From: a virus
IMG/VR virus record: IMGVR_UViG_3300028840_005764
Location: 62,001 to 126,000 of that record
Reading direction: 5' to 3' (one strand)
DNA: 64,000 bases
Shown: piece by piece, positions 21,977 through 35,488 of the stretch
How positions within the stretch are numbered: the stretch's first letter is position 1
Layout of the letters: each line of letters starts with the position of its first letter
Notes under the pieces: model-generated
Told to the model about the DNA's origin: nothing
Databases searched by the model: none
Seen by the model: only the letters and a program-made list of their open reading frames with translations
Program-made: the position numbers and the translations under genes

Positions 21977-21988
21977 ACAAGAACAAGA

Positions 21989-22073: not shown

Positions 22074-22081
22074 AAGATGAT

Positions 22082-22166: not shown

Positions 22167-22167
22167 A

Positions 22168-22391: not shown

Positions 22392-22395
22392 AGTT

Positions 22396-22470: not shown

Positions 22471-22526
22471 ATGATAACAAAAACAGCTTGACAATATCAG
22501 TGACTCAGTTATTATGGCGGCTTCGA

Positions 22527-22578
22527 AACACCGTAACCATCTTCTGCAGGCGCCCTGGAGAAACGTGGTTACGGTGTT
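22527..22578. other. 13-bp inverted repeat between tRNA genes
   Basis: AACACCGTAACCA and its perfect complement enclose 26 nt. On the plus strand it is followed by TTTTGCTTT. Could be a terminator for plus-strand readthrough or a processing stem in the tRNA transcript. Confidence 0.55.
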
Positions 22579-22584
22579 TTGCTT

Positions 22585-22659
22585 TGCCCACCCTGAGATT
22601 CGAACTCAGACTTTCACGGACCTGAACCGTGTCCCTCTACCAAGTTGGGGTAGGTGGGC
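22585..22659 (-). tRNA. tRNA-Leu(CAG) with short variable loop
   Basis: Acceptor GCCCACC/GGTGGGC, anticodon loop TTCAGGT giving CAG, 5-nt variable loop AAAGT, A73. Same non-type II form as the other leucine tRNAs here. Confidence 0.85.
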
Positions 22660-22666
22660 TGGGGAA

Positions 22667-22894
22667 GGTACTGGTCGGATTCTCACCGGCGGTCCACCGA
22701 TAGGGCCATGGTGGTCACTCACCCAGTGCGTTACCGGGAGTTGCTTATTCTGGCCCATAGCGCGACCCGTCGCGCACGCAGTACCACAGGAAATGCAGCA
22801 GCGGGACACCCCGGCGTCAGGATCTTGAGGCATCGGAACCGGGTCTAACATCCTCAAGTCTGTGTCCAGGCCACCTCGACCTCTCGACTGCTGC
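22667..22894 (-). ncRNA. Structured RNA of the GGTACTG family, copy 1
   Basis: Gene-free and GC-rich between tRNA-Tyr and tRNA-Leu(CAG). Read on the minus strand, a 5' domain has nested helices GCAGCAG/CTGCTGC, GGACAC/GTGTCC and CTTGAGG/CCTCAAG, with a possible pseudoknot ACCCGG/CCGGG. A 3' domain (22667-22785) is closed by GGTACTG/CAGTACC and contains a first hairpin capped by ACGGGT and a last one just before AATCC. The 3' domain recurs at 23103-23187. Not matched to RNase P, tmRNA, 6S or a riboswitch by eye. Strand inferred from its tRNA neighbours. Confidence 0.65.
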
Positions 22895-22896
22895 GA

Positions 22897-22981
22897 TGTG
22901 CGGGGGAGGATTCGAACCTCCATGTTTAGCCTGAGGCGGCAGGTTTACAGCCTGCTGGTTTCACCGTTCACCCACCCGCAC
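22897..22981 (-). tRNA. tRNA-Tyr(GUA)
   Basis: Type II tRNA, anticodon loop CTGTAAA, long variable arm, A73. It shows that the long-arm class is kept for Tyr and Ser in this phage, unlike for Leu. Confidence 0.93.
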
Positions 22982-22990
22982 ATAAATCAA

Positions 22991-23063
22991 TACTCGTGCA
23001 GGGATTCGAACCCCGAACATCCTGGTCCTAAGCCAGGCGCCTCTGCCGTTGGGCTACACGAGC
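22991..23063 (-). tRNA. tRNA-Leu(UAG) with short variable loop
   Basis: Anticodon loop CTTAGGA giving UAG, variable loop ATGTT, A73. G1-U72 wobble closes the acceptor. Confidence 0.83.
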
Positions 23064-23102
23064 AAATGAGGTAATGAAATGTCGAAAGGAGGTAAAAAAT
23101 CA

Positions 23103-23187
23103 GGTACTGGCAGGATTTTGGCTACCTGCGGTATGGTCTCTTGACCCTGCTTTGTGGCAGTCGACACCCGTGCCGATCCGCAGTACC
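23103..23187 (-). ncRNA. Structured RNA of the GGTACTG family, copy 2
   Basis: On the minus strand: GGTACTGCG, hairpin CGGC-ACGGGT-GTCG, a GGTC-AAGA-GACC tetraloop hairpin, a GCAGG/CCTGC hairpin, then AATCC and CCAGTACC. It shares with copy 1 the closing helix, the ACGGGT loop and the AATCC-NN-CCAGTACC end, while the inner helices differ in sequence. Lies directly upstream of tRNA-Leu(UAG). Confidence 0.6.
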
Positions 23188-23190
23188 TTT

Positions 23191-23469
23191 CTAGAACTTC
23201 TTCCCTCTACGCGCTTGGTGCTTTTGCCAACGTTTCCTCTGGCGCTCGAGGAAATCGTTTTTCAATGGCGCGAGCTCCTCCAGCACGATGTGGGAAGAGG
23301 TTTGGCTATCTTCAGAAAAAACCAACACCGTATCTTGATTTATATACGTTGTTGATTCTTTACACCACATACATTCTTGTACCCTTATTCTCTGGTATTC
23401 GTCAATATAAACATTAAGCTGTGCGCCACAAACATTGCAATAATATTGTTTTGGTTCAATAGCTATCAT
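23191..23469 (-). CDS. Small zinc-ribbon protein
   Basis: 92 residues; CNVCG near the start and CMWC 24 residues later form a probable zinc ribbon, and the C-terminus is basic (RQRKRWQKHQARRGKK). Its ATGA overlaps the next upstream gene. Function unknown. Confidence 0.6.
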   Translation of the reverse strand: MIAIEPKQYYCNVCGAQLNVYIDEYQRIRVQECMWCKESTTYINQDTVLVFSEDSQTSSHIVLEELAPLKNDFLERQRKRWQKHQARRGKKF

Positions 23470-23702
23470 TTCTTTTTCTCAATCTTTTTCATGACTTTCG
23501 CCATTCTTTTCTCTTGACCGTGAAAACATTTCATGATCTTTTTTAGTGCCTTTTTTGGGTTGTGGTGCATTATCTTACAATGTGTGCTTTGTTCTTCAGC
23601 TACCCATTTTTGATCTTTTTCGTGCCAGAAGACAGAGAATTGGTAGTTTTTTAAGAGAGGATATTTCACTACACAGGCTCCACATCCCAAGCGACCATAC
23701 AA
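23466..23702 (-). CDS. Unknown basic small protein
   Basis: 78 residues, Lys-rich C-terminal helix. Starts right after the tRNA-Thr gene. Not recognised. Confidence 0.5.
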   Translation of the reverse strand: MYGRLGCGACVVKYPLLKNYQFSVFWHEKDQKWVAEEQSTHCKIMHHNPKKALKKIMKCFHGQEKRMAKVMKKIEKKK

Positions 23703-24472
23703 GAGCCAGTGAGAGGAATCGAACCCCCAACATCTTCATTACAAGTGAAGCGCTCTACCGATTGAGCTACACTGGCATACTCAAAATCACCACGTTCGAT
23801 CGCCTCGAGATGTTTGATTGAAGGACGGCATTGGTTCAATGATTTGTTGTTGTTCAATACACTCGTTGCAATCTTCGAGATAATATCCGGATCCGTCCAA
23901 TATGACTGGCCTTTTTTCAATCTCAATTTCCGCACATGGTAACGGACAGCAGATTCTGACAGCTCTGTGACTCTGCAGATTTCTTTGACGGTAATTGTAC
24001 CTGATTTCCAGATTATACCCATTGCTCTGCATTTTATTTCGATTGCTTTTCTGCTTCTTCCAAGGCGTTTGGATGCATATTTCAATGGCATTCTTCCGGC
24101 GAGAAAAAGTAGTAAATCTTCTTCTTTTTTTGTCCATGGTTTTACCTTAATGCCATGTCTTGATGGCATTATTTGTGCTTTCAAACCAAGTTTTTGAAGT
24201 TTGGTCCCAACAGCATTAATAGATCTATTCAGTTTTTCTGATATTTGTTTTTTTGTATGTGTTGGTAGAAGTTTTTTTAGTTGTTGAATTTCTTCATCAG
24301 ACCACGGTGGATTATGTTTTAATTTTGCTATACCAAGTTGATTGACTTTGTTTTGTATTACTTTATGGCTTCTATCTAAAGCTTCTGCAATTTCTTTTAT
24401 TGATCTACGACCATGCCAATATCGTATGTAGTCGTATTCTTCTTCAGTGAATCTTCTTGAATTATCACCCAT
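23669..24472 (-). CDS. Myb/SANT-like repeat DNA-binding protein running through tRNA-Thr
   Basis: 267 residues as read. Three repeats of a Trp/acidic-led helix bundle start near residues 7 (FTEEEYDYI), 57 (PPWSDEEI) and 112 (KPWTKKEED), each followed by a recognition-type helix ending near KLGL or RAMGI. A fourth HTH-like region follows near 160. The last 35 codons are the tRNA-Thr gene on the same strand, so the original C-terminus was probably replaced when the tRNA inserted. Probable transcription regulator. Confidence 0.7.
   Translation of the reverse strand: MGDNSRRFTEEEYDYIRYWHGRRSIKEIAEALDRSHKVIQNKVNQLGIAKLKHNPPWSDEEIQQLKKLLPTHTKKQISEKLNRSINAVGTKLQKLGLKAQIMPSRHGIKVKPWTKKEEDLLLFLAGRMPLKYASKRLGRSRKAIEIKCRAMGIIWKSGTITVKEICRVTELSESAVRYHVRKLRLKKGQSYWTDPDIISKIATSVLNNNKSLNQCRPSIKHLEAIERGDFEYASVAQSVERFTCNEDVGGSIPLTGSCMVAWDVEPV
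23704..23776 (-). tRNA. tRNA-Thr(UGU)
   Basis: Anticodon loop CTTGTAA giving UGU, T-loop TTCGATT, U73. Fully inside the 3' end of the Myb-like gene. Confidence 0.92.
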
Positions 24473-24474
24473 GA

Positions 24475-24603
24475 TTATTCTTCACATTCATCGCAGATTT
24501 TTATATCTTTTTTAGCTTCTTTTTTTGTTAATTTATCACCGCAATATAAACAACATTTTGGATGTGGTCTATTGTAATCTTTTTTCTTTGTTTTCTTTTC
24601 CAT
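24475..24603 (-). CDS. 42-residue zinc-finger protein
   Basis: Very short frame: Lys-rich start (MEKKTKKK), CCLYCG, then CDECEE at the end, two Cys pairs about 20 residues apart. Stop lies 3 nt before the Myb-like ATG. A strong hairpin lies just upstream of its start. Real by composition and spacing, but small. Confidence 0.5.
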   Translation of the reverse strand: MEKKTKKKDYNRPHPKCCLYCGDKLTKKEAKKDIKICDECEE

Positions 24604-24619
24604 TATTTTACTCGCAGTC

Positions 24620-24657
24620 CCAACCCGCCCCCTACTACAACTTCAGGGGCGGGTTGG
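24620..24657. other. 12-bp GC-rich inverted repeat
   Basis: CCAACCCGCCCC and its perfect complement enclose 14 nt, 17 nt upstream of the 42-residue gene. No T-run on either side, so an mRNA leader or tRNA-processing hairpin is more likely than a terminator. Confidence 0.5.
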
Positions 24658-24720
24658 AATGTGCCCACGGAGGGGAAGGCACACATGCAGTATAACCGAG
24701 TCTCGTCTCATACAAAATGA

Positions 24721-24794
24721 TCCGGGTAGAAGGACTCGAACCTCCGACTTCCTGGTCCCAGGCCAGGAGCGCTACCAATCTGCGCCATACCCGG
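24721..24794 (-). tRNA. tRNA-Pro(UGG)
   Basis: Anticodon loop CCTGGGA giving UGG with G37 as in all proline tRNAs; acceptor CCGGGTA/TACCCGG; A73. Confidence 0.92.
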
Positions 24795-24798
24795 TCGA

Positions 24799-24873
24799 TG
24801 TCCGTCCTGGGATTCGAACCCAGACTGGCAGCGCCCTCAACGCTGTTCCTCTACCTTGTTGGGATAGACGGAC
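24799..24873 (-). tRNA. tRNA-Leu(GAG) with short variable loop
   Basis: Anticodon loop TTGAGGG giving GAG, variable loop CCAGT, A73, acceptor GTCCGTC/GACGGAC. Confidence 0.85.
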
Positions 24874-25124
24874 TAGAATGCCAGAGTTGGTGGTGTTCCA
24901 TTGGTGAAGTACTCATACCATTCTTCTAACCAATCTCTTCTCACATCATCTGGCTCAATTAATCTCCATGGTTTATTGCCTGTTTCTGGTTCTGGTGGCA
25001 TTAACTTACAACAGAACACAGGGCAATATCTGCATATTGCTGATTGTCCATATTCATTAATCTCATGTATATATAAACAATCTTCCGGACAATTATCAGG
25101 AAATTCTAATCCTTGAATATGCAT
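24873..25124 (-). CDS. Unknown Cys-rich small protein
   Basis: 83 residues with CPEDC, CRYC and CC within the first 45, a possible metal site, and a Trp-rich C-terminal helix. Ends exactly at the tRNA-Leu(GAG) 5' end. Confidence 0.6.
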   Translation of the reverse strand: MHIQGLEFPDNCPEDCLYIHEINEYGQSAICRYCPVFCCKLMPPEPETGNKPWRLIEPDDVRRDWLEEWYEYFTNGTPPTLAF

Positions 25125-25126
25125 TG

Positions 25127-25648
25127 TTATTCCTTTGGTCTTGGATATCTTTGTATTGATACACTTGCTTTTCTTCTTGTCTCATGTTCATAACATTTGA
25201 TGCAGATGCTGTGAGGCCAGTCGCCAACTCGTCTGAGTAGTGATACGAGACATGCGATTTCGGCTTTGGCGTTGTACGGTAGTAATATGTTTGGAGGCTT
25301 CTTGATGGTTATGGCTTTGCCAGTACTGCCGATGATTAGCAGCCCCCAGTTATCTGGGACTTCATGTTTTTCAATGATCCCCGCTGGTGCACAGTAGTAG
25401 CGGATTCTACCCATCCCCATCTCAGTCTTCTTCCTAAAGCTCTTTTTTTTGTCCTTTAGGAAATCAGATCTTGAGATCTTGCATTCAATAACTACGCTCA
25501 CATTGCTACCAAATGCAAGTACGTCTGGTGACTCACGTGTCGTGCTAACAATTTCTGTTATCACAACTGGATATTTTTTCTTGGCCCAGCGTGCAGCTTT
25601 TGCGATGACTTGTTCATGTGTGTAAGTGTACATGTATGTATATACCAC
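25127..25648 (-). CDS. PD-(D/E)XK-like nuclease with C-terminal YPRPK tag
   Basis: 173 residues from GTG. The core SPDVLAF then VVIECKISRSDF has the Asp and Glu-x-Lys of the PD-(D/E)XK fold; a conserved GRIRYYCAP segment follows, as in MmcB-like DNA-repair proteins. Ends IQRYPRPKE, the recurrent tag. Stands in the tRNA cluster beside an HNH nuclease with the same tag. Substrate unknown. Confidence 0.6.
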   Translation of the reverse strand: MVYTYMYTYTHEQVIAKAARWAKKKYPVVITEIVSTTRESPDVLAFGSNVSVVIECKISRSDFLKDKKKSFRKKTEMGMGRIRYYCAPAGIIEKHEVPDNWGLLIIGSTGKAITIKKPPNILLPYNAKAEIACLVSLLRRVGDWPHSICIKCYEHETRRKASVSIQRYPRPKE

Positions 25649-25661
25649 AACGCTGAATTTT

Positions 25662-26225
25662 TTATTGAGTTTTTGGTCTTGGATATCTTTTTATTGGCCT
25701 GGGGTATCTTTTTATTTTTGCATTAAGTTCTTTTTTCTTACCGCCATTCCATAATTTGTTTTGACAAATATATCCTATAGTAGACAAATGCACTCCATAT
25801 ATTGATGCAATGTATTTTAATGTATTACCATGTGTACGTAGTGTCTTAATCTCTTCAACGTCTTGTTCAGATAATTTAGCACTTGGATTTTTAGAACCCA
25901 CTAATGAACGTTGATCAAGTATCATGTCATTCATATTATCTTGATGTGTGCCGATGATTAAATGTTTTGGGTTACAGCACAATGTATTATTGCATGTGTG
26001 TCGCACACACATACCACTTGGGATTGGTCCATTGACATCTTCATACACAAGTCTGTGGGCCCTATACCATTTGCGATGTTTTTTTGAATAGTATACTTTG
26101 AACTCACCATAGTAGTTGTTAGTGCGACCCGATCTGGACTTCGCACCAGTCCATAACCAACATTCGTTAGGACCGCGCTGTTCTATCTTCTCCCATATGC
26201 GTTTGTGTATCTCTTTGTCGATCAT
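25662..26225 (-). CDS. HNH endonuclease with tandem C-terminal YPRPK tags
   Basis: 187 residues. HNH_3-type core: AHRLVYE, then CVRHTCNN, CCNPKHL and GTHQDNM. A C-terminal DNA-binding helix-turn-helix (residues ~115-165) resembles those of free-standing homing endonucleases. The protein ends IKRYPRPIKRYPRPKTQ, two copies of the genome tag. Probably mobile in the tRNA cluster, but the tag shows that it has adapted to this phage. Confidence 0.85.
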   Translation of the reverse strand: MIDKEIHKRIWEKIEQRGPNECWLWTGAKSRSGRTNNYYGEFKVYYSKKHRKWYRAHRLVYEDVNGPIPSGMCVRHTCNNTLCCNPKHLIIGTHQDNMNDMILDQRSLVGSKNPSAKLSEQDVEEIKTLRTHGNTLKYIASIYGVHLSTIGYICQNKLWNGGKKKELNAKIKRYPRPIKRYPRPKTQ

Positions 26226-26322
26226 TGTTGACTCTTTCTACTTGTTGGTATCAATCTAATATACCACTAAAGTAAAAAGAATTCTTATACTTATGGGAGT
26301 TGAACTTCCGAGTCGAACCCGT

Positions 26323-26396
26323 TGCCACGGGAGGGATTCGAACCCTCACTTATGCGATTTTAAGTCGCATGCCTCTACCAGTTGGGCTACTGTGGC
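26323..26396 (-). tRNA. tRNA-Leu(UAA) with short variable loop
   Basis: Anticodon loop CTTAAAA giving UAA, variable loop TAAGT, A73. The acceptor has one A-C mismatch at pair 6-67. Completes five leucine isoacceptors, all short-armed. Confidence 0.82.
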
Positions 26397-26401
26397 GTGA
26401 A

Positions 26402-26534
26402 TCGGGAGAGGTGGAATCGAACCACCGACCTGGGAGCTCCATATGCTGAAGTGGCGTCTTAGTTCCATGTGTGAGGCACGAGCGTTAGTTTAGACGTCAC
26501 TTACATCCCCGCTCTACCACTGAGCTATCTCCCG
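26402..26534 (-). ncRNA. tRNA-like RNA with Y-type stem inserted in the anticodon loop
   Basis: On the minus strand: acceptor CGGGAGA/TCTCCCG, D arm GCTC-AGTGGTA-GAGC and T arm GGTGG-TTCGATT-CCACC are tRNA-perfect, but the anticodon stem (GGGAT.. ..CTCCC) opens into a hairpin at 26449-26502. Its outer helix is AAGTG-A-CGTCT paired with AGACG-C-CACTT. The 3' strand carries GGAACT-AAGACGCCAC-TTCAG, the motif shared with the RNAs beside the Ro-like gene. Splicing at TTCAGCATA would give anticodon UGG, but A at 37 argues against a working tRNA-Pro. Confidence 0.7.
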
Positions 26535-26539
26535 AAAGG

Positions 26540-26680
26540 TGGACGGGCTAGGATTCGAACCTAGAAAAACTATGCTGAAACAACTTCTGAGTTCTCAATC
26601 GTATTGAGTGATGAAAGAAATTGTTGTTGCTTGCGTTGCTAGCTCTATAGGCTAGTGCCTTACCATTTGGCTACCCGTCC
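26540..26680 (-). ncRNA. tRNA-like RNA with Y-type stem inserted in the variable region
   Basis: On the minus strand: acceptor GGACGGG/CCCGTCC, D arm GCC-AAATGGTAA-GGC, a complete anticodon arm CTAGC-CTATAGA-GCTAG (anticodon would be AUA) and T arm CTAGG-TTCGAAT-CCTAG. About 75 nt between anticodon and T arms form a hairpin (AACAAC/GTTGTT at its base, CTCAAT/ATTGAG at its tip). The 3' strand reads GAGAACT-CAGAAGTTG-TTTCAG then CATA, matching the neighbouring RNA and the two beside the Ro-like gene. Confidence 0.7.
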
Positions 26681-26681
26681 A

Positions 26682-26758
26682 TGGTGGGGGCAATAGGACT
26701 CGAACCTATAGCCATCTGCTTGTAAGGCAGACACTCTGCGCAATTGAGTTATGCCCCC
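26682..26758 (-). tRNA. tRNA-Val(UAC)
   Basis: Anticodon loop CTTACAA, acceptor GGGGGCA, A73 and encoded CCA. Confidence 0.93.
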
Positions 26759-26766
26759 ATGGGTTG

Positions 26767-26839
26767 TGGACCAGGGCGGAATTGAACCGCCGACTCGAGG
26801 CTCTTCAGGCCCCAGCTCTACCTACTGAGCTACCGGTCC
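26767..26839 (-). tRNA. tRNA-Phe(GAA)
   Basis: Anticodon loop CTGAAGA, acceptor GGACCGG/CTGGTCC, A73; T-loop TTCAATT. CCA not encoded. Confidence 0.9.
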
Positions 26840-26896
26840 ACAAGATTCGTATTCAGTTTTCAAAGACTAAACATCAACGGATTGCCGAAGATGTTT

Positions 26897-26973
26897 TGGC
26901 GGGCCCAACGGGATTCGAACCCGTGTTACCGGCGTGACAGGCCAGCGTGCTAACCTGGCTACACTATGAGCCC
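26897..26973 (-). tRNA. tRNA-Asp(GUC)
   Basis: Anticodon loop CTGTCAC, acceptor GGGCTCA/TGGGCCC, G73 and encoded CCA. Confidence 0.92.
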
Positions 26974-26977
26974 ATAC

Positions 26978-27163
26978 CTACAGAATTCTGAGTTCCTTCC
27001 TACGAACCCATTGTTCTGTTCCATCCTTCCATCGAACCTTTACTGACTGCATCTTAGTAGTGCCTTTTCCATCTAGTACTCGACCGGTCTTACCGTTCTT
27101 ACGGTGCTCTACAATAGTCGAGCCGTGAGTCAGCCAGTGATATCTTCTTTTCCCATCACTCAT
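26978..27163 (-). CDS. Unknown basic small protein
   Basis: 61 residues, strand-rich and basic, with Trp-containing repeats (RYHWLTHG, VRWKDGTEQWV) suggesting a small beta-barrel such as an SH3/KOW-like fold. Start overlaps the end of the next upstream gene. Confidence 0.55.
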   Translation of the reverse strand: MSDGKRRYHWLTHGSTIVEHRKNGKTGRVLDGKGTTKMQSVKVRWKDGTEQWVRRKELRIL

Positions 27164-27416
27164 GGCGTATGTCTTCTGACATCTTCTCTTCGTCTTTTTT
27201 TCTCTTCGCTCGTACCATGTGTTCGGGGATCGCTATCATCGACACACTGATCTGTGGCCCTTTCTCTCCGAACTTCCAAATCTCGTTCTGGATGATGGTA
27301 TGTAGCCGTCCGATCTCTTTCGGCGTAAACCATTCACAGTCCTGAGTTTCGGCACAGAAATGCACACGATGGTATAACGGCTCGTCTCTTTTTATGTTTT
27401 TCCCAATACCCACCAC
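27156..27416 (-). CDS. Unknown small protein
   Basis: 86 residues; Cys pair CAETQDC near residue 22 and a Lys/Glu-rich C-terminal helix. Overlaps the downstream gene by 8 nt. Not recognised. Confidence 0.55.
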   Translation of the reverse strand: MVGIGKNIKRDEPLYHRVHFCAETQDCEWFTPKEIGRLHTIIQNEIWKFGEKGPQISVSMIAIPEHMVRAKRKKDEEKMSEDIRHE

Positions 27417-27455
27417 ATCTCCTTTCAGAAGTACGGCGGGGTACTTCTGAAATTT

Positions 27456-28322
27456 TCAATCCACCCAGGCCACACCTTCCATGCGGCCCTCGTTGGACTC
27501 GGTATTGCGAATCACCTTGCGCCAGCTCTTGAACGACACCGTCTTGTGCTCCGGGTGCCGCACCTTCCCGCGCACGAAGATCTCCCGCCCCCTGATCGAG
27601 TAGCCATGCTCGAGGCGCACTCCATCAGCGACGATCAGCTCTTCTGCCACGTGCTGGTTCCCACCACCTCCACGTCTTCCTCGCCTGGCTGCGGCGATGT
27701 CGACTTTCCTTTGCACCAGGCCTTTGCCTACCGCTTCGTCGATATTGGCCTGCTCGTTGGCGTCCACGTTGAGGAAGAACCATTCTCCCTGGCGGATGGT
27801 ACGCCCCATCTGCTTGCCTTCGTACAGCCACACGGTCGGAGCCTTGAGTCTGTCGTGGGCCCGCTGGACCGTTGGTGCCGCTTCTGGCAGCTGGGCGATG
27901 AACAATTGTCTTTCGTCCACACCCAACAGAAAGTGGCGTTTGTTGCTCGATGTGCGCCGACGGACAACCACACGCCCCTTCTTCAGACGGCGCACGATGT
28001 CTCGCTGTGGCACTTCACGCGCGACGTACTGGCCCACCTCCTCGGTGAATTCCCGGGCCTTTTCGTGGACCATCAACACCAGTTGACTGAGTTTTTTGTC
28101 GGTGTTGATCACCTGGATGTTCACCTCTTCGCCAGGCCAGATCCTGAAGTATTCGCTGCGCCAGTTGCCCTTGATCTTGCGCTGGATGTCCATGCCGAAC
28201 ACAGCGCGGTTGACACCTCGGCCACCGACAGGATTGTCTGTGATTTCCAACTTGAGACCGGCCTTCGCGAATTGCGAGACCAGCGACTCGCACATGATTC
28301 TGAACTGACCCTTCATCAACAT
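27456..28322 (-). CDS. Unknown 288-residue basic protein, GC-rich
   Basis: Long, clearly coding, much richer in G+C than the tRNA region around it. Mixed alpha/beta with a basic Gly-rich patch (RRGRRGGGG near residue 215). The pattern suggests RNA or DNA binding, but no family is recognised. First of the GC-rich genes, possibly acquired separately. Confidence 0.65.
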   Translation of the reverse strand: MLMKGQFRIMCESLVSQFAKAGLKLEITDNPVGGRGVNRAVFGMDIQRKIKGNWRSEYFRIWPGEEVNIQVINTDKKLSQLVLMVHEKAREFTEEVGQYVAREVPQRDIVRRLKKGRVVVRRRTSSNKRHFLLGVDERQLFIAQLPEAAPTVQRAHDRLKAPTVWLYEGKQMGRTIRQGEWFFLNVDANEQANIDEAVGKGLVQRKVDIAAARRGRRGGGGNQHVAEELIVADGVRLEHGYSIRGREIFVRGKVRHPEHKTVSFKSWRKVIRNTESNEGRMEGVAWVD

Positions 28323-28337
28323 CTTGTGTCCTTTTGA

Positions 28338-28409
28338 CGAGCGGCTAAGGAATCGAACCCTACAGACGGTCGGGTTTGGAGCCCAACCCGCTTACCCAGA
28401 GCGCCGCCC
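28338..28409 (-). tRNA. tRNA-Trp(CCA), D arm shortened
   Basis: Anticodon arm TTGGG-CTCCAAA-CCCGA and T arm TAGGG-TTCGATT-CCTTA fit Trp, G73 as expected. The D region between acceptor and anticodon stem is about 16 nt, roughly 3 shorter than usual, and its stem is weak. Confidence 0.65.
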
Positions 28410-28411
28410 AA

Positions 28412-28487
28412 TGGCTCCAGGGGTGGGGCTCGAACCCACGGCCAGCGACTTAACAGGCCGCCGCTCTACCAGCTGAGCTACCCTGGA
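28412..28487 (-). tRNA. tRNA-Asn(GUU)
   Basis: Anticodon loop CTGTTAA, acceptor TCCAGGG/CCCTGGA, G73 and encoded CCA. Confidence 0.92.
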
Positions 28488-28530
28488 ACAGGCGCAGCTC
28501 TTACCAATTGAACGGGCTACTAAGTCGATC
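28488..28530 (-). pseudogene. 5' half of a tRNA (remnant)
   Basis: Minus strand reads TAGCCC then TTCAATTGGTAAGAGC, a D-arm-like segment, and stops in the 5' end of tRNA-Asn. No anticodon or T arm follows. Likely a leftover of tRNA replacement. Confidence 0.35.
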
Positions 28531-28585
28531 TGACCCGGACAATAAGTCCGAATATGGCAGAGAAAAGGAGGTTGTGGTTTGGACC

Positions 28586-28729
28586 ATGAACGTGACGCTG
28601 GTTGTAGTTTTCATGGCATCCTCCTGTGGGATCATTCGATCCTATCACCCACCATCGGCAAAGCACAACTCAAAATATAATTATTTTCTAATTATTTTTG
28701 GCGATGGGGTTGGGGATAATGATTGTTGA
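28586..28729 (+). CDS. Possible small lipoprotein on the plus strand
   Basis: 47 residues with hydrophobic start and lipobox MASSC. AAGGAGG lies 14 nt before the ATG, a little far; an in-frame GTG at 28574 is alternative. Its end overlaps the minus-strand gene at 28681, which reduces confidence. Confidence 0.4.
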   Translation: MNVTLVVVFMASSCGIIRSYHPPSAKHNSKYNYFLIIFGDGVGDNDC

Positions 28730-28869
28730 TTGGACTCTTCTTCAAGTTCTTGAGTACATTGCTCACAAACAACTATATGCATACCATCATAAGGCATGAA
28801 TTTATATGGAGGATTTCCGCATAATTCGCACGGCACTGCGCATTCAACATTTATTTTGTCTGTTGCCAT
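28681..28869 (-). CDS. Small zinc-finger protein
   Basis: 62 residues; CELCG and CEQC about 20 residues apart, acidic tail. Overlaps the next upstream gene by 19 nt. Confidence 0.6.
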   Translation of the reverse strand: MATDKINVECAVPCELCGNPPYKFMPYDGMHIVVCEQCTQELEEESNQQSLSPTPSPKIIRK

Positions 28870-29357
28870 GGTTTCCCCTCATCAAGAACATGTTGTTGTA
28901 TTTCCTTGAACGTGACTTGTGGTTTTTCACCGGATTTAAACATAGTAGATGTCGGAGTTGGTTTTGTTATAGTAACTAGTTTTTTATCATGTGATGATTC
29001 TTCAGCTACGCATTGGCTATCCTGGCATTCGTGCATTACGGGACAGTCGCTATCCGATTGACATTCTCCCATGAATGCTCTGATTGCATCAGGTTCATCA
29101 GCTGCTGACACCGGCATCATAGGTGCCGCTGTATTCATTTGAAGTTTTATTTCATACATTAGATCTTTTAGTTCATCATGTTTTTCATTTAGTTTAGATA
29201 TTTCTTGTGTTGAATAATTAAATAAACTATGAAGCATTAATTCATTTTTACTGTCACTTTTGATTGCAGCTATTAATGCAGCTATTGCTGTAATCAATGC
29301 TGGTATAGATACTAGAATATTTTTTGAGCCGCTGACTTTTTTCTCCTTATCAGACAT
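28851..29357 (-). CDS. Membrane protein with coiled coil and Cys-rich module
   Basis: 168 residues after a good AAGGAGG leader. One hydrophobic segment (residues ~14-32), a coiled coil to residue 75, then a compact CQSDSDC..CQDSQC module like small disulfide domains. Suggests an inner-membrane anchored protein facing the periplasm. Confidence 0.65.
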   Translation of the reverse strand: MSDKEKKVSGSKNILVSIPALITAIAALIAAIKSDSKNELMLHSLFNYSTQEISKLNEKHDELKDLMYEIKLQMNTAAPMMPVSAADEPDAIRAFMGECQSDSDCPVMHECQDSQCVAEESSHDKKLVTITKPTPTSTMFKSGEKPQVTFKEIQQHVLDEGKPWQQTK

Positions 29358-29422
29358 ATCATCCCTCCTTGTGCTGATTTAATCGTTATAGTATCACAAT
29401 AAGTAATCAGTACCAGGAGTAA

Positions 29423-29495
29423 CGCGTCCGGCAGGATTCGAACCCGCGTAGTTCTGATTAGAAGTCAGATGCCTGATCCCCTAGGCTACGGACGC
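29423..29495 (-). tRNA. tRNA-Arg(UCU)
   Basis: Anticodon loop CTTCTAA, acceptor GCGTCCG/CGGACGC, G73. Confidence 0.92.
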
Positions 29496-29504
29496 GAAAG
29501 AAGT

Positions 29505-29532
29505 GGTGATAGCCGCCCACATCACTATCACC
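29505..29532. other. 8-bp inverted repeat between tRNA-Arg genes
   Basis: GGTGATAG and CTATCACC enclose 12 nt. Perhaps a processing stem of the tRNA transcript. Confidence 0.4.
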
Positions 29533-29575
29533 CGCACAAGCCCCAACCGAACCAAATGCTTGCACATCCCTGTAA

Positions 29576-29649
29576 CACGCCCGGCAGGATTCGAACCTGC
29601 GACCTCCTGGCCCGCAACCAGGCACGCTATCCAACTGCGCTACGAGCGC
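29576..29649 (-). tRNA. tRNA-Arg(GCG)
   Basis: Anticodon loop TTGCGGG giving GCG, acceptor GCGCTCG/CGGGCGT, G73. Bacteria normally read CGC with an A34 (inosine) tRNA, so a G34 form is unusual. Confidence 0.85.
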
Positions 29650-29840
29650 TCGTCTTCGTCGATGAAGACTGTATTTTTTGGAAGTTTTTTTAGACTGAAT
29701 GGTAACTCTTGATGATAATCCTCTGGTGGGAAAATACCCACAGGTATAAGAGTTTGTGTTGTAGCTGTCATCACTTCGTGGTCACCATACCCATCTTCGA
29801 TGAGTTCAGTGATTCTTTGGTGTAGTTCCGATAGTGTCAT
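29640..29840 (-). CDS. Unknown small protein
   Basis: 66 residues from ATG 29840 (MTLSELHQRI). Runs 10 nt into the tRNA-Arg gene. Immediately downstream of the gene at 29842 and therefore probably in the same transcript as the Ro-like protein. Confidence 0.55.
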   Translation of the reverse strand: MTLSELHQRITELIEDGYGDHEVMTATTQTLIPVGIFPPEDYHQELPFSLKKLPKNTVFIDEDERS

Positions 29841-29841
29841 T

Positions 29842-30825
29842 TTACGCACCTGCTGAGCACAGAGACACATAAGGGTAGCCTTGCCGTTCCTTATACAGAA
29901 TTTGCCCAGCCAGTTGTTGGTTGGCTACAGTCGCCACACTCATCTTGGGCAGTCTGCTGTCGGCTGCACCTTCTGACAGCAGCGGCTGTTGTGTCACGTG
30001 TTCGATCGTTTTTTCGCTCAGCAGTTTGACCTGCGCATTGGCGTTTTTCAGTGCGCGGTGAATACCAGCCAGCGATTTGACCTCCACGCTCATGGGCACA
30101 AAGAATTTTGACGCTTGCCTGTGCCGCTTTTGATACTGAATTGCGAGTGAGCCGTAGCAGACTCTTATCAGTGGTTCCCACACACGTTCCCAGAACGCCA
30201 TGTTTGGAGCGCGTTCGACACCAACCACGTTTTCTCCCAGCAAGATGATGGCACCAATTTGTTTTGGCACCAACTCAAACTCAGCTACGAACTCATCCAG
30301 CTGCTTTTCAAAGTGCTTCAAGAAGTAAGTGAGGTGGCCACCAGTATGTGGCACTCCACTTTCTTTGTTCAGACTTCTGATGTGCGGCCAGATCTTGTCA
30401 TAACCTTGTCTGTGTCTCATACTGAGAGCATGAGATCGTATTGATGCTGGCAATACCAACATGGTGATCGCTTTCTGGTCTCTGATGTAACCACCTTGGC
30501 TGTCCTCGATGCACATGGCTGTCTCGATGGACTTGCGGCCGTTTGCTTTGACCAAAAACGCGCTTGGCACAGCGTGGTCTTGTGCACGTTCTCTTGTCAC
30601 CCAACCAGCACCTGTCGGTACGATGCTTGGTCGTGTGCTGTCTGTATTGCGCACTTGAACCGTACCATAGTTCGATGTTTCCACATGGAAGTCTGGTGGT
30701 GCGAAGTCGTCATCTTGCGCGTCGCCCTCGTCGATGAGCGGGATGACAGACATGTGGCCCACGGTTTGGGTTCTGCCACGTCCCATTCCTCTGAGGATTT
30801 CTTCGACTGTGAGGTTGCGTGTCAT
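29842..30825 (-). CDS. Partner gene of the Ro-like protein (possible ARPP-1-like)
   Basis: 327 residues, start overlapping the Ro-like stop as ATGA, so the two are translationally coupled. Residues 55-125 (a VRN strand, GAGWVTRERAQDHAVPSAF, then CIEDSQGGY) recall the ARPP-1 domain, in which a conserved Gln-Asn-Arg loop is followed by a VE-type strand; here the loop reads AQDHAV. That resemblance is from memory and weak. The C-terminal half is helical. Likely works with the vWA/Ro-like protein. Confidence 0.5.
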   Translation of the reverse strand: MTRNLTVEEILRGMGRGRTQTVGHMSVIPLIDEGDAQDDDFAPPDFHVETSNYGTVQVRNTDSTRPSIVPTGAGWVTRERAQDHAVPSAFLVKANGRKSIETAMCIEDSQGGYIRDQKAITMLVLPASIRSHALSMRHRQGYDKIWPHIRSLNKESGVPHTGGHLTYFLKHFEKQLDEFVAEFELVPKQIGAIILLGENVVGVERAPNMAFWERVWEPLIRVCYGSLAIQYQKRHRQASKFFVPMSVEVKSLAGIHRALKNANAQVKLLSEKTIEHVTQQPLLSEGAADSRLPKMSVATVANQQLAGQILYKERQGYPYVSLCSAGA

Positions 30826-32435
30826 GACAGTGCCTTTCTCGTCTCAACTGACCCCAGGGCCAGACGTAGTAGGGCGTTGATTCCATTCACTGGCTCTGCC
30901 TCGATCATCCCTCGGATGAAGGTGGCTGTGAGCTGCCCAGGTTGCTGCACTGGCATTGTTGGTACACCGTCGTTGGGCGCCAGCTCACGTGCACCTTTCG
31001 ACTCGGCAGCGAACACCGGGTTTAAATGATACACAGGCGTATCAATACCGATCTCCCGCACGTGGTGCATGACCTCAGCGAAGCGCCCGGCTGGTGCATT
31101 CTCGTATCCGTCGCTGATCACGAACACAGCCTCGGGTTCGTCGTTCAGCGCCTCCACCAAGCTGTCAGCAATGGCTGTGTCACCCATCGGACGGACGAGA
31201 CCATCGCCAGCTTCGATGTCTGTACCACTGACATGGTACTCCTGACTCTCATCACCGGTGTGCAACAGGGTGTCGCGCATGGCCAAGGCCACCGCCAGGG
31301 GTCGCAGTGGTTGGCTGCGGTGACCAGCCATCGATTGTGACGCGTCCACGATGACGGCCACCGATTTGTAGCGCGTTGGGAACATCGCTGCGGTCTCCTT
31401 CGCCTTCTCGTCCAAGGCGTTCGCAATCTCTTGCGTCAGCCCACACTCGAACGCGTAGAGGTATAGGCGCACAGCGTCGTACTTCGTCGGGTCCATGTCG
31501 ACTTCGACGTTTGCGCGCTTTGCTCTTTTCTGTACTGCCATCTTCTGGTGGCCGGTGAGCTTGCCGCCCTTGGCCACAAGTTTCAGCACATCCTCCTTCT
31601 TCGTGTCGGGGTGGTATGTGCTTCTCAGGCCCTCCAGGACCTCCAGAGGAAGTTTAGAGCCAGCCTTGATATCTTCCTTCGCTTTTTCAAACGAAACGAA
31701 GAGAGGCAGGCTCAGGCGTTCACGCACGTCCAGGATGAAGCCCACGCACTCGAGCACTTCCTTGTATCTGTTCAGCTGGCAGTGCTTCCGGATGTTCTGC
31801 TCGAGAATCGTTAGCTCCTTCTTCTTTCGGTAACGCCCACCCTTCTTCAGGATCGATCCGATGATTGATGTTAGCCGTAGGCCCCAGGCGTGGGTCAGTG
31901 CCGCCCGCATTTTTGTCCTGTACTTCACCGACCAGAGTTGCAGTCTCGGGCTCGAGAGCAGCGTGCGCAGGATCAGTTTTCTTGTCCTGGCGTTGTTCGC
32001 CTTCTTCAGACCCAGGGATGCATCACCCACCCGCAGTCCATCGATCAGCTTCAACATGCGCTGTGGTGGCAGAGCTTGGAACAGGTGGTACAGCACCATG
32101 CGTTCTTGTCCCGGCTCGAGGAACGCTTGTTCCACGCCGTTCCGGGGGAATGACAGCAGCTTCTTCATACCGATCTGCACGCTGCGGTCGGTCAACCCTG
32201 GCAGCGTCAACAGCACGGCGTATACGTCCCTCTCCAGGCCAAAGAGTTCGTCGTGCACACGCAGTTCGGCAGCCTGTTGTTCGGCGCGCGTGTTGTAGTG
32301 CGTCGCGCGCCCCATGGAGCTGACAGCTGTGTCCAGGAATGAGCAGACGGATTTGCTCATCTTCTTCACAGCAGTCTTGTTCCGTGGCATCCACAGCAGC
32401 TGTTCATTCGAGTGCGTTTGCACCAACGTATTCAT
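30822..32435 (-). CDS. Ro60/TROVE-like protein with C-terminal vWA domain
   Basis: 537 residues, about the length of human Ro60. Residues 1-340 are helical and repeat-like, with many basic residues; residues ~355-537 are a vWA domain with an intact metal site: D364-x-S366-x-S368, T420 in GDTAIADS and D442 in ISDG. The order (helical ring, then vWA) is that of Ro60/Rsr, which binds misfolded RNA and Y RNAs and in bacteria cooperates with PNPase. The N-terminal part is too divergent for a sure TROVE call by eye. The case rests on layout, MIDAS and the Y-like RNAs lying directly upstream. Confidence 0.6.
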   Translation of the reverse strand: MNTLVQTHSNEQLLWMPRNKTAVKKMSKSVCSFLDTAVSSMGRATHYNTRAEQQAAELRVHDELFGLERDVYAVLLTLPGLTDRSVQIGMKKLLSFPRNGVEQAFLEPGQERMVLYHLFQALPPQRMLKLIDGLRVGDASLGLKKANNARTRKLILRTLLSSPRLQLWSVKYRTKMRAALTHAWGLRLTSIIGSILKKGGRYRKKKELTILEQNIRKHCQLNRYKEVLECVGFILDVRERLSLPLFVSFEKAKEDIKAGSKLPLEVLEGLRSTYHPDTKKEDVLKLVAKGGKLTGHQKMAVQKRAKRANVEVDMDPTKYDAVRLYLYAFECGLTQEIANALDEKAKETAAMFPTRYKSVAVIVDASQSMAGHRSQPLRPLAVALAMRDTLLHTGDESQEYHVSGTDIEAGDGLVRPMGDTAIADSLVEALNDEPEAVFVISDGYENAPAGRFAEVMHHVREIGIDTPVYHLNPVFAAESKGARELAPNDGVPTMPVQQPGQLTATFIRGMIEAEPVNGINALLRLALGSVETRKALS

Positions 32436-32493
32436 AGCATCACCTCTCCCGTGGAGTTCTCCATCAAATTGTTTGTGGAGGAAAGGAAAGATC

Positions 32494-32563
32494 TAGCGGT
32501 AATTACGGAAGCTGGGTCTTTGACATAAACTATTTGTCTGAACCAGCATCACAGTTCCCGCTA
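32494..32563 (-). ncRNA. Possible third, tRNA-less Y-like hairpin in the Ro-like leader
   Basis: On the minus strand TAGCGG-GAACT opens a stem closed by CCGCTA, with inner helices GCTGG/CCAGC and GACA/TGTC. It shares GCGGGAACT with the GCGAGAACT of the RNA at 32711. Lies between the Y-like RNA and the Ro-like start codon; could be a separate RNA or an mRNA leader element. Confidence 0.4.
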
Positions 32564-32570
32564 AAAGAAA

Positions 32571-32694
32571 TGGTTGAGTCAATTAGAGCATCACGTTTTC
32601 TAAGTGACTGGACTTGAACCAGCTACCTACGGTTTTCAGGACCGTTGCTCTTTCCAACTGAGCTACACTAAAGTGACCCTCAAGTTCTCAACCA
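32571..32694 (-). ncRNA. YrlA/Y RNA-like: tRNA-like module in a bulged stem, copy A
   Basis: 124 nt. Ends pair as TGGTTGAG/CTCAACCA, followed by a two-base 3' bulge (GA), AA/TT, a C-A mismatch, T-A, a T-T mismatch, GAG/CTC, a G-G mismatch and GTCAC/GTGAT. The loop is a complete tRNA-like fold (32600-32672): D arm GCTC-AGTTGGAAA-GAGC, anticodon arm ACGGT-CCTGAAA-ACCGT, T arm GCTGG-TTCAAGT-CCAGT. C at position 33 and a U-U mismatch in the acceptor argue against a working tRNA. Bacterial YrlA RNAs have the same plan and are often next to the Ro gene. Confidence 0.7.
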
Positions 32695-32710
32695 AAACAA
32701 GGCGTTTAAA

Positions 32711-32832
32711 GCGAGGGAAGTAGGACATCACGATTGAGTGAAAGAGAAGGATTTGAACCTTCAACCTTCGGCTCTGCATGCCGATGCTCGACCACTCGAG
32801 CTGTCTTCCTAAAGTGACCTCCAAGTTCTCGC
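32711..32832 (-). ncRNA. YrlA/Y RNA-like: tRNA-Cys-like module in a bulged stem, copy B
   Basis: 122 nt. Same stem plan as copy A: GCGAG/CTCGC, 3' bulge CC, AA/TT, C-C mismatch, T-A, T-T mismatch, GGA/TCC, G-G mismatch, GTCAC/GTGAT. The inner module (32739-32810) is tRNA-like with anticodon loop ATGCAGA (GCA, Cys), GAGC D stem and TTCAAAT T-loop; an A-A pair ends the acceptor. A TATATT box at 32838-32843 would place transcription start near the stem's 5' end. A plain tRNA-Cys is the alternative. Confidence 0.65.
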
Positions 32833-32919
32833 TAAAAAATATATACCACAGGTGCTCGAACTTTTCGCAAGTTTTTTTCTTATTTTTTCACTTTTTCTTC
32901 CATAATATATTGGGTGGAA

Positions 32920-32993
32920 TGCCCCCGGTGGGATTTGAACCCAACGTTGCCGGATTGAAAGCCCGGTGTCCTACCCGTTTGAACGACGGGGGC
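32920..32993 (-). tRNA. tRNA-Glu(UUC)
   Basis: Anticodon loop CTTTCAA, acceptor GCCCCCG/CGGGGGC, T-loop TTCAAAT, A73 (glutamate tRNAs usually have G73). Confidence 0.88.
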
Positions 32994-32999
32994 GAAGGA

Positions 33000-33722
33000 T
33001 TATTCTGCAATTGCGTCGTTGATCGCTGCATATATTTCATCTTTTGCTCTTGCTATTTTATAGTATGGAACATGGAAAAATTCAGCTAGATGATTATTAC
33101 GTATCACAAATTCAAATGGCAAATTGGATATGAGGCCTACGTGGCGTTCACGCATTTTTTGAATACGATCGTTTTTAATTTTATTCACCAGCTCTTCTGG
33201 TGGTGTGAGTAGTGAATGTAGGACACGCCGTGCAAAAGGTTTTAATCTTTTTTCTGTGTGTTCTAATATTTCTTTGTATCTATAATCCCATTTTGCTTGG
33301 CATGAATATGGATATGATTTGATTTTATCGACTGAGATATCTTGGTTTTTCATTACCTCAATTTTTACATGTTGTTTTGGATCTTTAGGTGTGTATTTAG
33401 AATCTTTTCTAAATGCTGTCACAGCAGTATTTAAGAAGTTTTTGCGTGCTATATACATACACCAAGTTTTGATTGATGCGCGTGTCTCATCATATTTGTC
33501 TAGATTCTTAAACATTTTTAAATATGCTTCTTGAACAAGATCTTCTTTATCTATAAATGACGGTATAGATACTTTCCCAGCTTCACGCATAAGGAATGGC
33601 CGCAACTCTTGAATAGTTTTGAGGAATAGCTGTTTTCTTTCGTCAGTGACTGTGAATTTTTTCTGGCGTGGATAGAGTTTCGGGCGTGGGCGGAGCTTCG
33701 GGCGTGGTTTTCTGACAATCAC
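33000..33722 (-). CDS. Sigma-70 region 2-like factor with N-terminal RPRPK tag
   Basis: 240 residues from GTG 33722 behind GGAGGG. Residues 1-22 are a basic-proline tag (RKPRPKLRPRPKLYPRQK). Residues ~50-95 match sigma region 2: IDKEDLVQEAYLKMFKNL, then KTWCMYIARKNFL. The C-terminal part may be a degenerate region 4. T4 late sigma gp55 is a functional analogue. A separate region-4-like protein with the same tag is encoded at 15277. Likely directs host RNA polymerase to a class of phage promoters. Confidence 0.75.
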   Translation of the reverse strand: MIVRKPRPKLRPRPKLYPRQKKFTVTDERKQLFLKTIQELRPFLMREAGKVSIPSFIDKEDLVQEAYLKMFKNLDKYDETRASIKTWCMYIARKNFLNTAVTAFRKDSKYTPKDPKQHVKIEVMKNQDISVDKIKSYPYSCQAKWDYRYKEILEHTEKRLKPFARRVLHSLLTPPEELVNKIKNDRIQKMRERHVGLISNLPFEFVIRNNHLAEFFHVPYYKIARAKDEIYAAINDAIAE

Positions 33723-34525: not shown

Positions 34526-35488
34526 TCAGGCAGCTTTGAGGAGGGTGTCGATCCGGTTCATGGCCTCGGTCTTCATCTGCGCGGCGCCGCCCCACCACAC
34601 GCTATTCAGGCGCGCTTCGTCACCACGGGACTGGCGGTGGTGGTCCGTGTACTCGGCCACGGCGTTGATCGCTGCCCACGCAGTACCGCGGAAGTCGGCG
34701 AGGCCGATGCCCTGGTCAAAGAGACGCACGACCTTGTTCCTGTTGTTCTGTGTGCGCGTCGGCACCTCGTTCTCGTCCTTTGCCGGGAACAAGCCCTGCG
34801 CCAGCATCTGCATCTGGATGTCGGTGAACTTCTGCCGCGCCATCCAGTCCGCGCGCTCCTGGAACCTGTTGAAGTACAGGTGTGCGAGCCCCAGCGCTTC
34901 TCTCGCCTGCTCCATCTTGTCCTTGTACTTGGTTGTGTGGCGGATCCTGAAGGTGTTGGTGGCACGGCCCATGGCGATGTTCAGCGTGTTTTGGCAGACC
35001 ACTCTTTCCGGTGTGAACATGCCGCTGCAAGCGCCGCTACCGTCGTGCGACGTGCTCAGTAGCAGGTACTGCTCGAGGATGTCGTTTCCGGCCACACGCA
35101 TGACCTCGGGCAGCTTCGCCTGCATCCACACCTTGCGACCGTTCCACAGGCTGCCAGCCGTGTGGTACATGGCGAGCTTCTCGCCCACGATCCCGTCCAG
35201 GAGCTCGAAGGCATCTCGATTCTGGATGCAGTGGTAGCGGCTGCCGCACACGCCCAGCGCCTCTTCCGTGTCCTTGCGCACGATGGCGTAGTTGCCCACC
35301 ATCACGTTCATGCGCTCCTCACCGTAGTGCTCGGTGAACAGCTCGCGGGTCTCAACTTCCCAGTCCAAGCCCGCGGCCACGAGAGCCTCGTCACTGGTCG
35401 CGGCGTCTGGGACCTCCACACCCATACCGTGCCACGGGCGCTGTCCGTAGTAGAACATGTTGTCGTGTTCCTGGATACCTGCGGTCAT
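34526..35488 (-). CDS. DUF932 / phage-plasmid-like protein
   Basis: 320 residues. N-terminal RPWHGMGVEV and later YHCIQNRDAFELLDGIVGE plus SHDGSGA and RVVCQNTLN are typical of the DUF932 (TIGR03299) family found on plasmids and phages. Role unknown; often near replication or anti-defence genes. Strongly GC-rich. Confidence 0.85.
   Translation of the reverse strand: MTAGIQEHDNMFYYGQRPWHGMGVEVPDAATSDEALVAAGLDWEVETRELFTEHYGEERMNVMVGNYAIVRKDTEEALGVCGSRYHCIQNRDAFELLDGIVGEKLAMYHTAGSLWNGRKVWMQAKLPEVMRVAGNDILEQYLLLSTSHDGSGACSGMFTPERVVCQNTLNIAMGRATNTFRIRHTTKYKDKMEQAREALGLAHLYFNRFQERADWMARQKFTDIQMQMLAQGLFPAKDENEVPTRTQNNRNKVVRLFDQGIGLADFRGTAWAAINAVAEYTDHHRQSRGDEARLNSVWWGGAAQMKTEAMNRIDTLLKAA

Follow-up and report, generated by a model that had tools for sequence, protein, structure and literature searches.

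Does a phage encode its own Ro60 particle? The question is raised by a 64,000-nucleotide (nt) stretch of the virus record IMGVR_UViG_3300028840_005764 (record positions 62,001-126,000; the record holds 142,861 bases), which we call the window and within which all coordinates and strands are given. On its minus strand, a gene for a 537-residue vWA protein (30822-32435) is directly preceded by three structured RNAs of the same strand, designated A (32710-32833), B (32571-32694) and C (32492-32565), and adjoins a gene for a 327-residue ARPP-1 protein (29842-30825). Taken together, the results make it probable that the phage encodes its own Ro60-type ribonucleoprotein, consisting of a divergent Ro60, Y-type RNAs specified upstream and an ARPP-1 partner. 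That the vWA gene is a Ro homologue accompanied by Y-type RNAs is very likely. The original prediction, drawn from the letters of the DNA, had proposed a Ro-like protein next to two tRNA-mimicking RNAs within a tRNA array.

Relatives of the vWA protein were gathered from virus contigs, one 462-kb phage record and bacterial genomes (L-numbers denote their loci). The alignment of these proteins (A2) comprises 19 members, namely the window protein, 15 virus or phage proteins and three bacterial ones (from Thalassoglobus neptunius, a Planctomycetota metagenome-assembled genome (MAG) and the L026 MAG titled 'bacterium'), which are 22-51% identical to the window protein. The open reading frame comprises a TROVE-like helical part (residues ~20-350) followed by a vWA domain, and the metal-ion-dependent adhesion site (MIDAS), originally predicted to be intact, is indeed present as D364-x-S366-x-S368 and D442, invariant in 19/19 aligned members. 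Residues K175 and H182 are invariant as well. An AlphaFold2 model built on A2 (pLDDT 84, pTM 0.80) was compared with the PDB by VIA-align, and ranks 1-10 were all occupied by Ro60, Rsr or TROVE structures (Z 12.7-18.6) spanning model residues 24-531. The best match was Xenopus Ro with RNA (2i91_A, Z 18.6, root-mean-square deviation (rmsd) 3.9, 408 residues), and the others included human Ro60, a 'Trove domain' (9kop, Z 16.5), Ro60 of Thermus phage phiLo (9l5y_B, Z 16.1) and Deinococcus Rsr (2nvo, Z 12.7), whereas the 40 rows below rank 10 covered the vWA part only (best Z 12.1). The model bears out the Ro60 layout claimed for the protein. The N-terminal half, on whose TROVE fold the claim depended, aligns with the Ro60/Rsr structures along with the vWA domain, a match that concerns the helices rather than their presumed closure into a ring.

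The sole Foldseek match at an expect value (E) below 0.001 was again 9kop, the 'Trove domain'. Furthermore, profile-profile comparison by hhalign against 11 canonical TROVE proteins gave 95.0% with E 3.8e-8 over residues 260-442, the N-terminal part lying outside the aligned region; against the six planctomycete TROVE proteins only, the value was 88.9%, with the aligned region comprising the vWA part and the residues just ahead of it. The direct search with the TROVE profile, suggested originally as a check, went the other way: Pfam TROVE (PF05731) matched 0/19 A2 members at E ≤ 1, while the same profile matched 5/5 canonical phage proteins as a positive control. Since the model matches Ro60 structures and the profile-profile comparison matches TROVE, yet the TROVE profile recognises no member, we conclude that the 537-residue protein is, as judged by its predicted fold and remote sequence similarity, a Ro60 homologue in a clade missed by the standard profiles. 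Searches of PDB sequences by phmmer and with a profile recovered no Ro60, NCBIfam gave one unrelated weak match, and a PADLOC scan of 6 proteins gave nothing.

The two RNAs foreseen upstream of the gene on the same strand, each with a tRNA fold held in a long bulged stem, were recovered as RNAs A and B. Both consist of an outer stem, an asymmetric 5-nt/7-nt internal loop, an inner stem interrupted by a single G-G mismatch, and a tRNA-like cloverleaf, which ARAGORN calls 'Cys gca' in RNA A (32738-32810) and 'Ser tga' in RNA B (32599-32672). The D-arm, anticodon arm and T-arm follow one another in normal tRNA order, and the stem is attached at the acceptor end. Single-sequence folding against dinucleotide shuffles gave modest values for RNAs A and B (z -2.0 and -2.6). 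An alignment (A3) of 12 RNAs, comprising A, B and one RNA from each of ten relatives, clearly showed covariation: 22 of its 29 pairs change on both sides, including 7/7 in the outer stem and 6/8 in the inner one. Its cells are paired in 86.7% versus 63.8% in shuffles, and the observed covariation score was reached in 0/500 shuffles, the value for further pair types in 4/500. The 12 RNAs were chosen because they fold so, and therefore the searches with a model built from them, the flank test and the scan for the stem module weigh more than the covariation.

The model built from the 12 aligned RNAs (R1) was searched over 21 sources; at E ≤ 1 it yielded 116 matches, of which ordinary tRNAs made up a large share. 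Scores of at least 75 bits were reached by 25 distinct RNAs (27 rows, two of them the window's own RNAs repeated in L004), that is, the 12 training RNAs, among them A (111.5 bits) and B (97.1 bits), and 13 new ones, in eleven loci. The best ordinary tRNA scored 69.3 bits in these loci and 59.3 bits in canonical phage loci. The flanks of 134 tRNA-like genes were then compared, and complementary flanks (z ≤ -2.5) were found in 20 of the 22 ARAGORN-found RNAs with at least 75 bits by R1 vs. 1 of the 112 others, a grouping that is not fully independent, as R1 itself scores the stem. The two RNAs short of the cut-off belong to L024 (z -1.9) and L025 (z -1.2). The single gene among the others is the window's tRNA-Thr (23703-23776, minus strand), otherwise ordinary, with unusually complementary flanks (z -2.6, 3/200 shuffles) and matched by R1 in its tRNA part only.

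The stem module was also sought by a motif scan (cut-off score 32). In the window, the scan found RNA A (score 32), RNA B (score 36) and one more place (26579-26625), compared with one hit in total when that strand was shuffled six times; because known copies had served to define the motif, the hits at A and B are not independent. In 18 loci, 47 hits fell within the 50,971 bases upstream of the Ro gene vs. 5 in 520,409 bases elsewhere; when 301,183 bases of the loci were shuffled and scanned twice, 4 hits resulted. The few hits in canonical TROVE loci (L029, L032, L033, L037, L040; scores 30-38) were taken as chance. Duplicates were not counted as independent (L004 and L005 encode an identical protein; L011, L014, L021 and L008 repeat L006, L013, L020 and L003, with the same match figures or 42%), and L027, where the Ro and ARPP-1 genes are in pieces, was excluded from A2, the flank test and the 18-locus count. 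In this Fuerstiella MAG, two RNA modules lie on the opposite strand to the broken genes. The stem module is conserved and covarying; both in phages and in bacteria of planctomycete type, it forms small arrays ahead of the Ro-like gene, and it is rare elsewhere in the loci examined.

Three elements had escaped the original prediction: RNA C, the ARPP-1 partner, and a tRNA that is split by a further copy of the stem. RNA C, located between RNA B and the Ro gene, follows the stem plan of A and B but carries no tRNA domain; its fold has z -3.3 against shuffles (0/200), and its module score is 31, one below the cut-off. The split tRNA (26541-26680, minus strand) was missed by ARAGORN and found by the Rfam tRNA model (55.2 bits over 26540-26680). 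It possesses acceptor, D-, anticodon and T-arms, and about 75 nt with the module (26579-26625, score 35) are accommodated in the variable loop, the outer end of the module being closed by a triloop. Its designed fold has -39.6 kcal/mol vs. -43.1 kcal/mol for the minimum free energy, and its local stem has z -2.65 (16/1000 shuffles as low). A weak candidate, read by eye, is a tRNA at 26403-26534 (minus strand), in which a similar module, with its inner strands at 26492-26502 and 26449-26459, may stand in place of the anticodon loop; its local stem has z -1.3, with 105/1000 shuffles as low, and it falls under the cut-off of the module scan.

The topologies in the relatives were read by eye from folds, and the script's D-first/T-first labels, derived from crude letter patterns, were not used. 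The normal tRNA order is found in all 12 RNAs of A3. Permuted copies occur in L007 (2655-2815), L010 (4110-4300), L012, L013 (6295-6450) and L024 (6920-7060), several of them keeping an anticodon arm beside the stem. In six tRNAs with an intact acceptor stem (two in L013, two in L010, one in L015 and one in L003), the module with its outer end closed is placed in the D-arm region, and 4/6 of these end in ACCA. Copies without a tRNA occur in L020, L022 and L023. In planctomycete loci L024 and L025, 25 and 42 ARAGORN tRNA genes, respectively, are packed upstream of the Ro-like gene, with one R1 RNA in each.

How close are these RNAs to the bacterial YrlA RNAs (RF02553), which were said to have the same plan? 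The Rfam consensus order, as seen in a canonical planctomycete locus, is outer stem, 5-nt loop, inner stem, T-arm, closed hairpin, D-arm, inner stem, 8-nt loop and outer stem. We read the tRNA part of YrlA as a circularly permuted tRNA, where the hairpin is the acceptor stem and the Ro stem takes the place of the anticodon arm. The canonical phage Ro60 loci (BRock, CcrPW, Xanthomonas phage Olaya) show a YrlA-like order, as read from folds. The stem geometry of YrlA and of RNAs A and B is almost equal (6 base pairs (bp), 5 nt/7 nt versus 5/7-8 nt, 7-8 bp), whereas the permuted tRNA part of YrlA begins with the T-arm, and that of RNAs A and B runs from the D-arm through the anticodon arm to the T-arm on a stem at the acceptor end. 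Hence, the claimed likeness held for the stem geometry and the neighbouring gene; it failed for the topology and for the family model, which, run over the whole record, scored at best 13.0 bits at RNA B against a gathering threshold of 69 bits. RNAs A and B have the general plan of Y RNAs, a bulged double stem plus a second module beside Ro60, with the RNA ends presumably at the stem, to judge by the structure.

The YrlA model gave 70.9 bits in a canonical planctomycete locus as a positive control and 37.3 bits at best across the 16 virus records. Weak matches were obtained in 10/16 virus records, and 13/14 control genomes also gave them. Several matches in L012 (best two 37.3 and 34.3 bits) and one in L013 (26.6 bits) land on copies that we had read as permuted, which ties the arrays to Y RNAs; the remaining weak matches are, in our reading, due to the succession of T-arm and D-arm in tandem ordinary tRNAs. 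Elsewhere, in Caulobacter phage CcrPW (L037, 2800-3780) and Xanthomonas phage Olaya (L039, 2150-2770), several permuted Y-type RNAs can be read upstream of the TROVE gene, where no RNA is annotated. In crAssphage cr112_1 (L038, 4998-5139), an insert in a tRNA anticodon loop beside a canonical TROVE gene resembles the Y-RNA stem of canonical TROVE loci (UUACUUC motif).

The tRNA parts of the array RNAs probably do not serve decoding. Position 33 is a C in RNA B and a U in RNA A, and 20 of the window's 21 ordinary tRNAs have U33. In the alignment of 12 RNAs, seven have U33, one of the rest lacking a 7-nt loop by our reading, and four have A34 according to ARAGORN; the anticodon loops vary freely, and therefore seem not to be kept for decoding. 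RNA B, called a tRNA-Ser, has no long variable arm, and a normal tRNA-Ser(tga) is present at 21889-21976. The acceptor strands of RNAs A and B, counted by eye, each pair at 6/7 positions.

The third component is encoded by the ARPP-1 gene (Pfam PF20208, E 6.6e-27), whose start overlaps the stop of the Ro gene by 4 nt (ATGA), so that the two genes probably form one operon. ARPP-1 was matched in 12/12 and 7/7 further records (together 19/19) and was found in every examined record with the RNAs. Its start lies -4 to +97 bases from the Ro stop in 17/18 loci, as measured on open frames, and the 18th, L025, was placed adjacent by match coordinates. The AlphaFold2 model of ARPP-1 (pLDDT 90) had no clear match in the PDB (best Z 4.0). 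Its Pfam name suggests a link to 'ARG' (which we take to be ADP-ribosylglycohydrolase) and rhodanese-phosphatase proteins. Among 294 planctomycete genomes, 10 matched A2 at E ≤ 1e-3, 8 of them strongly, and two further loci (G087, G024) bear ARPP-1 and at least one module each. The four weaker homologues (G199, G255, G066, G136; loci L053-L056) come from genomes that lack ARPP-1, and in their neighbourhood neither a module on the gene strand nor any R1, tRNA or Rfam match was found; on the opposite strand, module-scan hits of 31 (L053) and 32 (L054) were found, and L056 spans only about 1.2 kb upstream. The locus is also carried by Thalassoglobus neptunius KOR42 (L024), which we take to be a cultured strain.

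A number of observations speak against assigning the locus to a Ro60-type particle. In addition to TROVE, Pfam vWA_Ro60 and NCBIfam fail to recognise the Ro-like protein, PHROGs gives it no confident name, and phrog_850, which covers 5/5 canonical phage proteins, touches only 5/19 members and weakly (best E 0.016). In the structural comparison, ranks 9 and 10 (human Ro60 9nen and Rsr, Z 12.7) are tied with the first vWA-only row (12.1), so that ranks 1-8 (Z 16.1-18.6) alone stand clear, and Foldseek superposes the model only loosely on 9kop (TM 0.36-0.40, rmsd 11.9). As for the RNAs, Rfam YrlA was absent from the scan of the window, with no match at E ≤ 10 in 32430-33010, and the covariance-model search recommended originally accordingly lists neither RNA A nor RNA B. 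The letters of the internal loop also differ, AACUU / UAAUUGA in the window RNAs vs. AUGCu / AaAcUuGu in YrlA. In L018, L019 and L020, all R1 matches are under 75 bits and overlap the range of ordinary tRNAs. The module cut-off is passed by 16/18 loci, and L012 and L019 have no hit upstream, though R1 finds RNAs there. Finally, no RtcB or RNA_ligase gene was matched in this record, which may be a fragment.

How might such a particle work? The bulged double stem would be the module that docks onto Ro, and the grafted tRNA a second, effector-facing module that may bring in a tRNA-recognising enzyme, for instance a nuclease, a ligase or a modification enzyme of either host or phage origin. ARPP-1, presumably made from the Ro operon, would work with the particle. 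As the phage translates with tRNAs of its own, the particle may handle RNA that is structured or damaged, most probably tRNAs. During infection it would thus be likely to serve either the quality control of tRNAs or other structured RNAs or the supply of tRNA decoys; that the particle is a quality-control tether is a tentative assignment, to which we give slightly less than even chances. In a broader sense, we incline, by a narrow preference, to the view that a portable Ro-docking stem has been joined to tRNAs in more than one way (to the acceptor end of a tRNA of normal order, within the variable loop, within the D-arm region of a tRNA whose acceptor stem and ACCA end are intact, in the YrlA-like permuted form, or alone), is served by a profile-missed Ro60 clade plus ARPP-1, is common to huge phages and planctomycetes, and gives phages Ro-captured tRNA mimics.

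The same particle would be at work if the RNAs were tRNA decoys, baiting host defence nucleases with their anticodon loops or tRNA elbows; Ro60 would then keep the RNAs stable and retain the enzyme once it is caught. This use appears nearly as attractive as quality control because RNAs A and B, like other copies of normal order, bury the acceptor end in the stem and expose the anticodon arm; the free variation of the anticodon loops and the presence of several different copies per locus also fit. Nevertheless, some copies have no tRNA at all (RNA C and those of L020, L022 and L023), some permuted or truncated ones have no clear anticodon arm (L024 6920-7060), and the proposal names no nuclease target, so that we regard it as possible rather than probable. 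A mobile, intron-like nature of the stem module, with the Ro-like protein and ARPP-1 serving its spread or excision, would fit its varied positions, namely the acceptor end, the variable loop and, among the relatives, the D-arm region of tRNAs whose acceptor stems are intact, and RtcB is encoded in 3/16 records. Yet RNA_ligase is equally infrequent (3/16), neither gene was matched in this record, and the stem sequences differ between copies of one locus, unlike recent mobile insertions. To our knowledge, no mobile or intron-like role is known for the parallel YrlA RNAs, which also counts against this explanation, and we consider it unlikely.

Could RNAs A and B simply be decoding tRNAs whose flanks pair by chance or form a processing signal, with the vWA gene as a chance neighbour? 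Rfam and ARAGORN do call them tRNAs, their acceptor strands pair at most positions, and RNA A has U33. Against this stand the excess of complementary flanks over other tRNA-like genes, the C33 of RNA B and its missing long variable arm, and the fact that, in relatives, copies of this stem next to the Ro-like gene may be permuted or lack a tRNA, which make such an explanation very improbable. Still harder to sustain is the notion that the gene encodes some vWA protein other than Ro60, for example a co-chaperone of the MoxR type. By itself, the vWA domain also matches, among others, Rpn10, NorD and Rea1, the last at Z 12.1 and so level with the two lowest-ranking Ro60 rows, and Pfam VWA_CoxE is matched at E 0.018. 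These matches cover residues ~328-517 only, whereas the ten Ro60/TROVE rows also cover the helical part, eight of them at Z 16.1-18.6. We retain the Ro60-type ribonucleoprotein with Y-type RNAs as the probable explanation of the locus.

Y RNAs near Ro60 are reportedly widespread in bacteria and phages and are said to mimic tRNA; phage Ro60 with Y RNAs is already known. With the canonical bacterial and phage systems (Ro60/Rsr and YrlA; RF02553, PF05731, phrog_850), the window system shares the Ro60 fold with a vWA domain, RNAs beside the gene, the stem geometry, a second domain mimicking tRNA and, as in phage BRock, the place in a phage tRNA array; the canonical BRock gene sits in such an array with a Y-type RNA readable upstream. 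It differs in that its protein is missed by TROVE and vWA_Ro60 and its RNAs by YrlA, in the normal order of the tRNA, in the ARPP-1 partner and in the loop letters. The phiLo Ro60 (9l5y) and the 'Trove domain' 9kop are Ro60/TROVE structures to which our model aligns at Z 16.1 and 16.5, with only 12% identity over the alignment. One canonical TROVE protein is matched in 105 of 50,697 phage records, and close relatives of a planctomycete TROVE protein (L028), sought in viral contigs, gave none.

Jumbo phages with TROVE proteins are on record (PMC7824862), and putative Y RNAs together with an Rsr-like gene have been described for a Listeria phage (PMC12282133). In the latter, phage CKA15, the product CKA15_055 was called Rsr by HHpred and highly transcribed regions lie upstream on the same strand, the parts of that report available to us describing no tRNA grafts. 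When the window protein was compared with the phage collection by tblastn, one record, LR756500, was matched at E ≤ 0.01, so CKA15_055 is no close relative, provided that the CKA15 genome is in that collection. Archaeal tRNA clusters contain a TROVE gene in 20 of 29 cases (PMC6333295), a location like the one seen here; the gene is named there by its TROVE domain, and Y RNAs are not mentioned in the portions seen. In the literature searched, mostly titles and the openings of abstracts, neither tRNA grafts of normal order on Y RNAs nor an ARPP-1/Ro60 pair is described. As far as these searches show, three features are new, namely the Ro60 clade invisible to the TROVE profile, the grafting of tRNAs in normal order or as inserts, and the association with ARPP-1.

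Why bacteria and phages have Ro60 together with tRNA-mimicking Y RNAs is a standing question, and the system of the window offers an independent natural variant, in which the geometry of the docking stem is the same and the tRNA is attached elsewhere. Such a variant sets the stem, which the particle seems to require, apart from the tRNA surfaces that it displays. The ARPP-1 partner points to a further activity of the particle.

The placement of the Ro-like gene and stem RNAs inside a tRNA array, as originally noted, was confirmed by ARAGORN: the array extends over 21464-32993 on the minus strand and has 23 genes, of which RNAs A and B are two. A Sigma-70 region 2 protein (phrog_1740) is encoded at 33000-33722 on the same strand, directly upstream of the RNA cluster and a tRNA-Glu, and could drive the tRNA/RNA array. 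Genes on the plus strand of the window include those for DNA polymerase, a UvsX-like recombinase, ribonucleotide reductase and the SbcCD subunits. Finally, the phrog_1221 protein encoded at 34526-35488 on the minus strand resembles DUF932, a family name assigned by eye, and a Pfam DUF932 protein is also encoded near the system in the relative L003 (774-1643).

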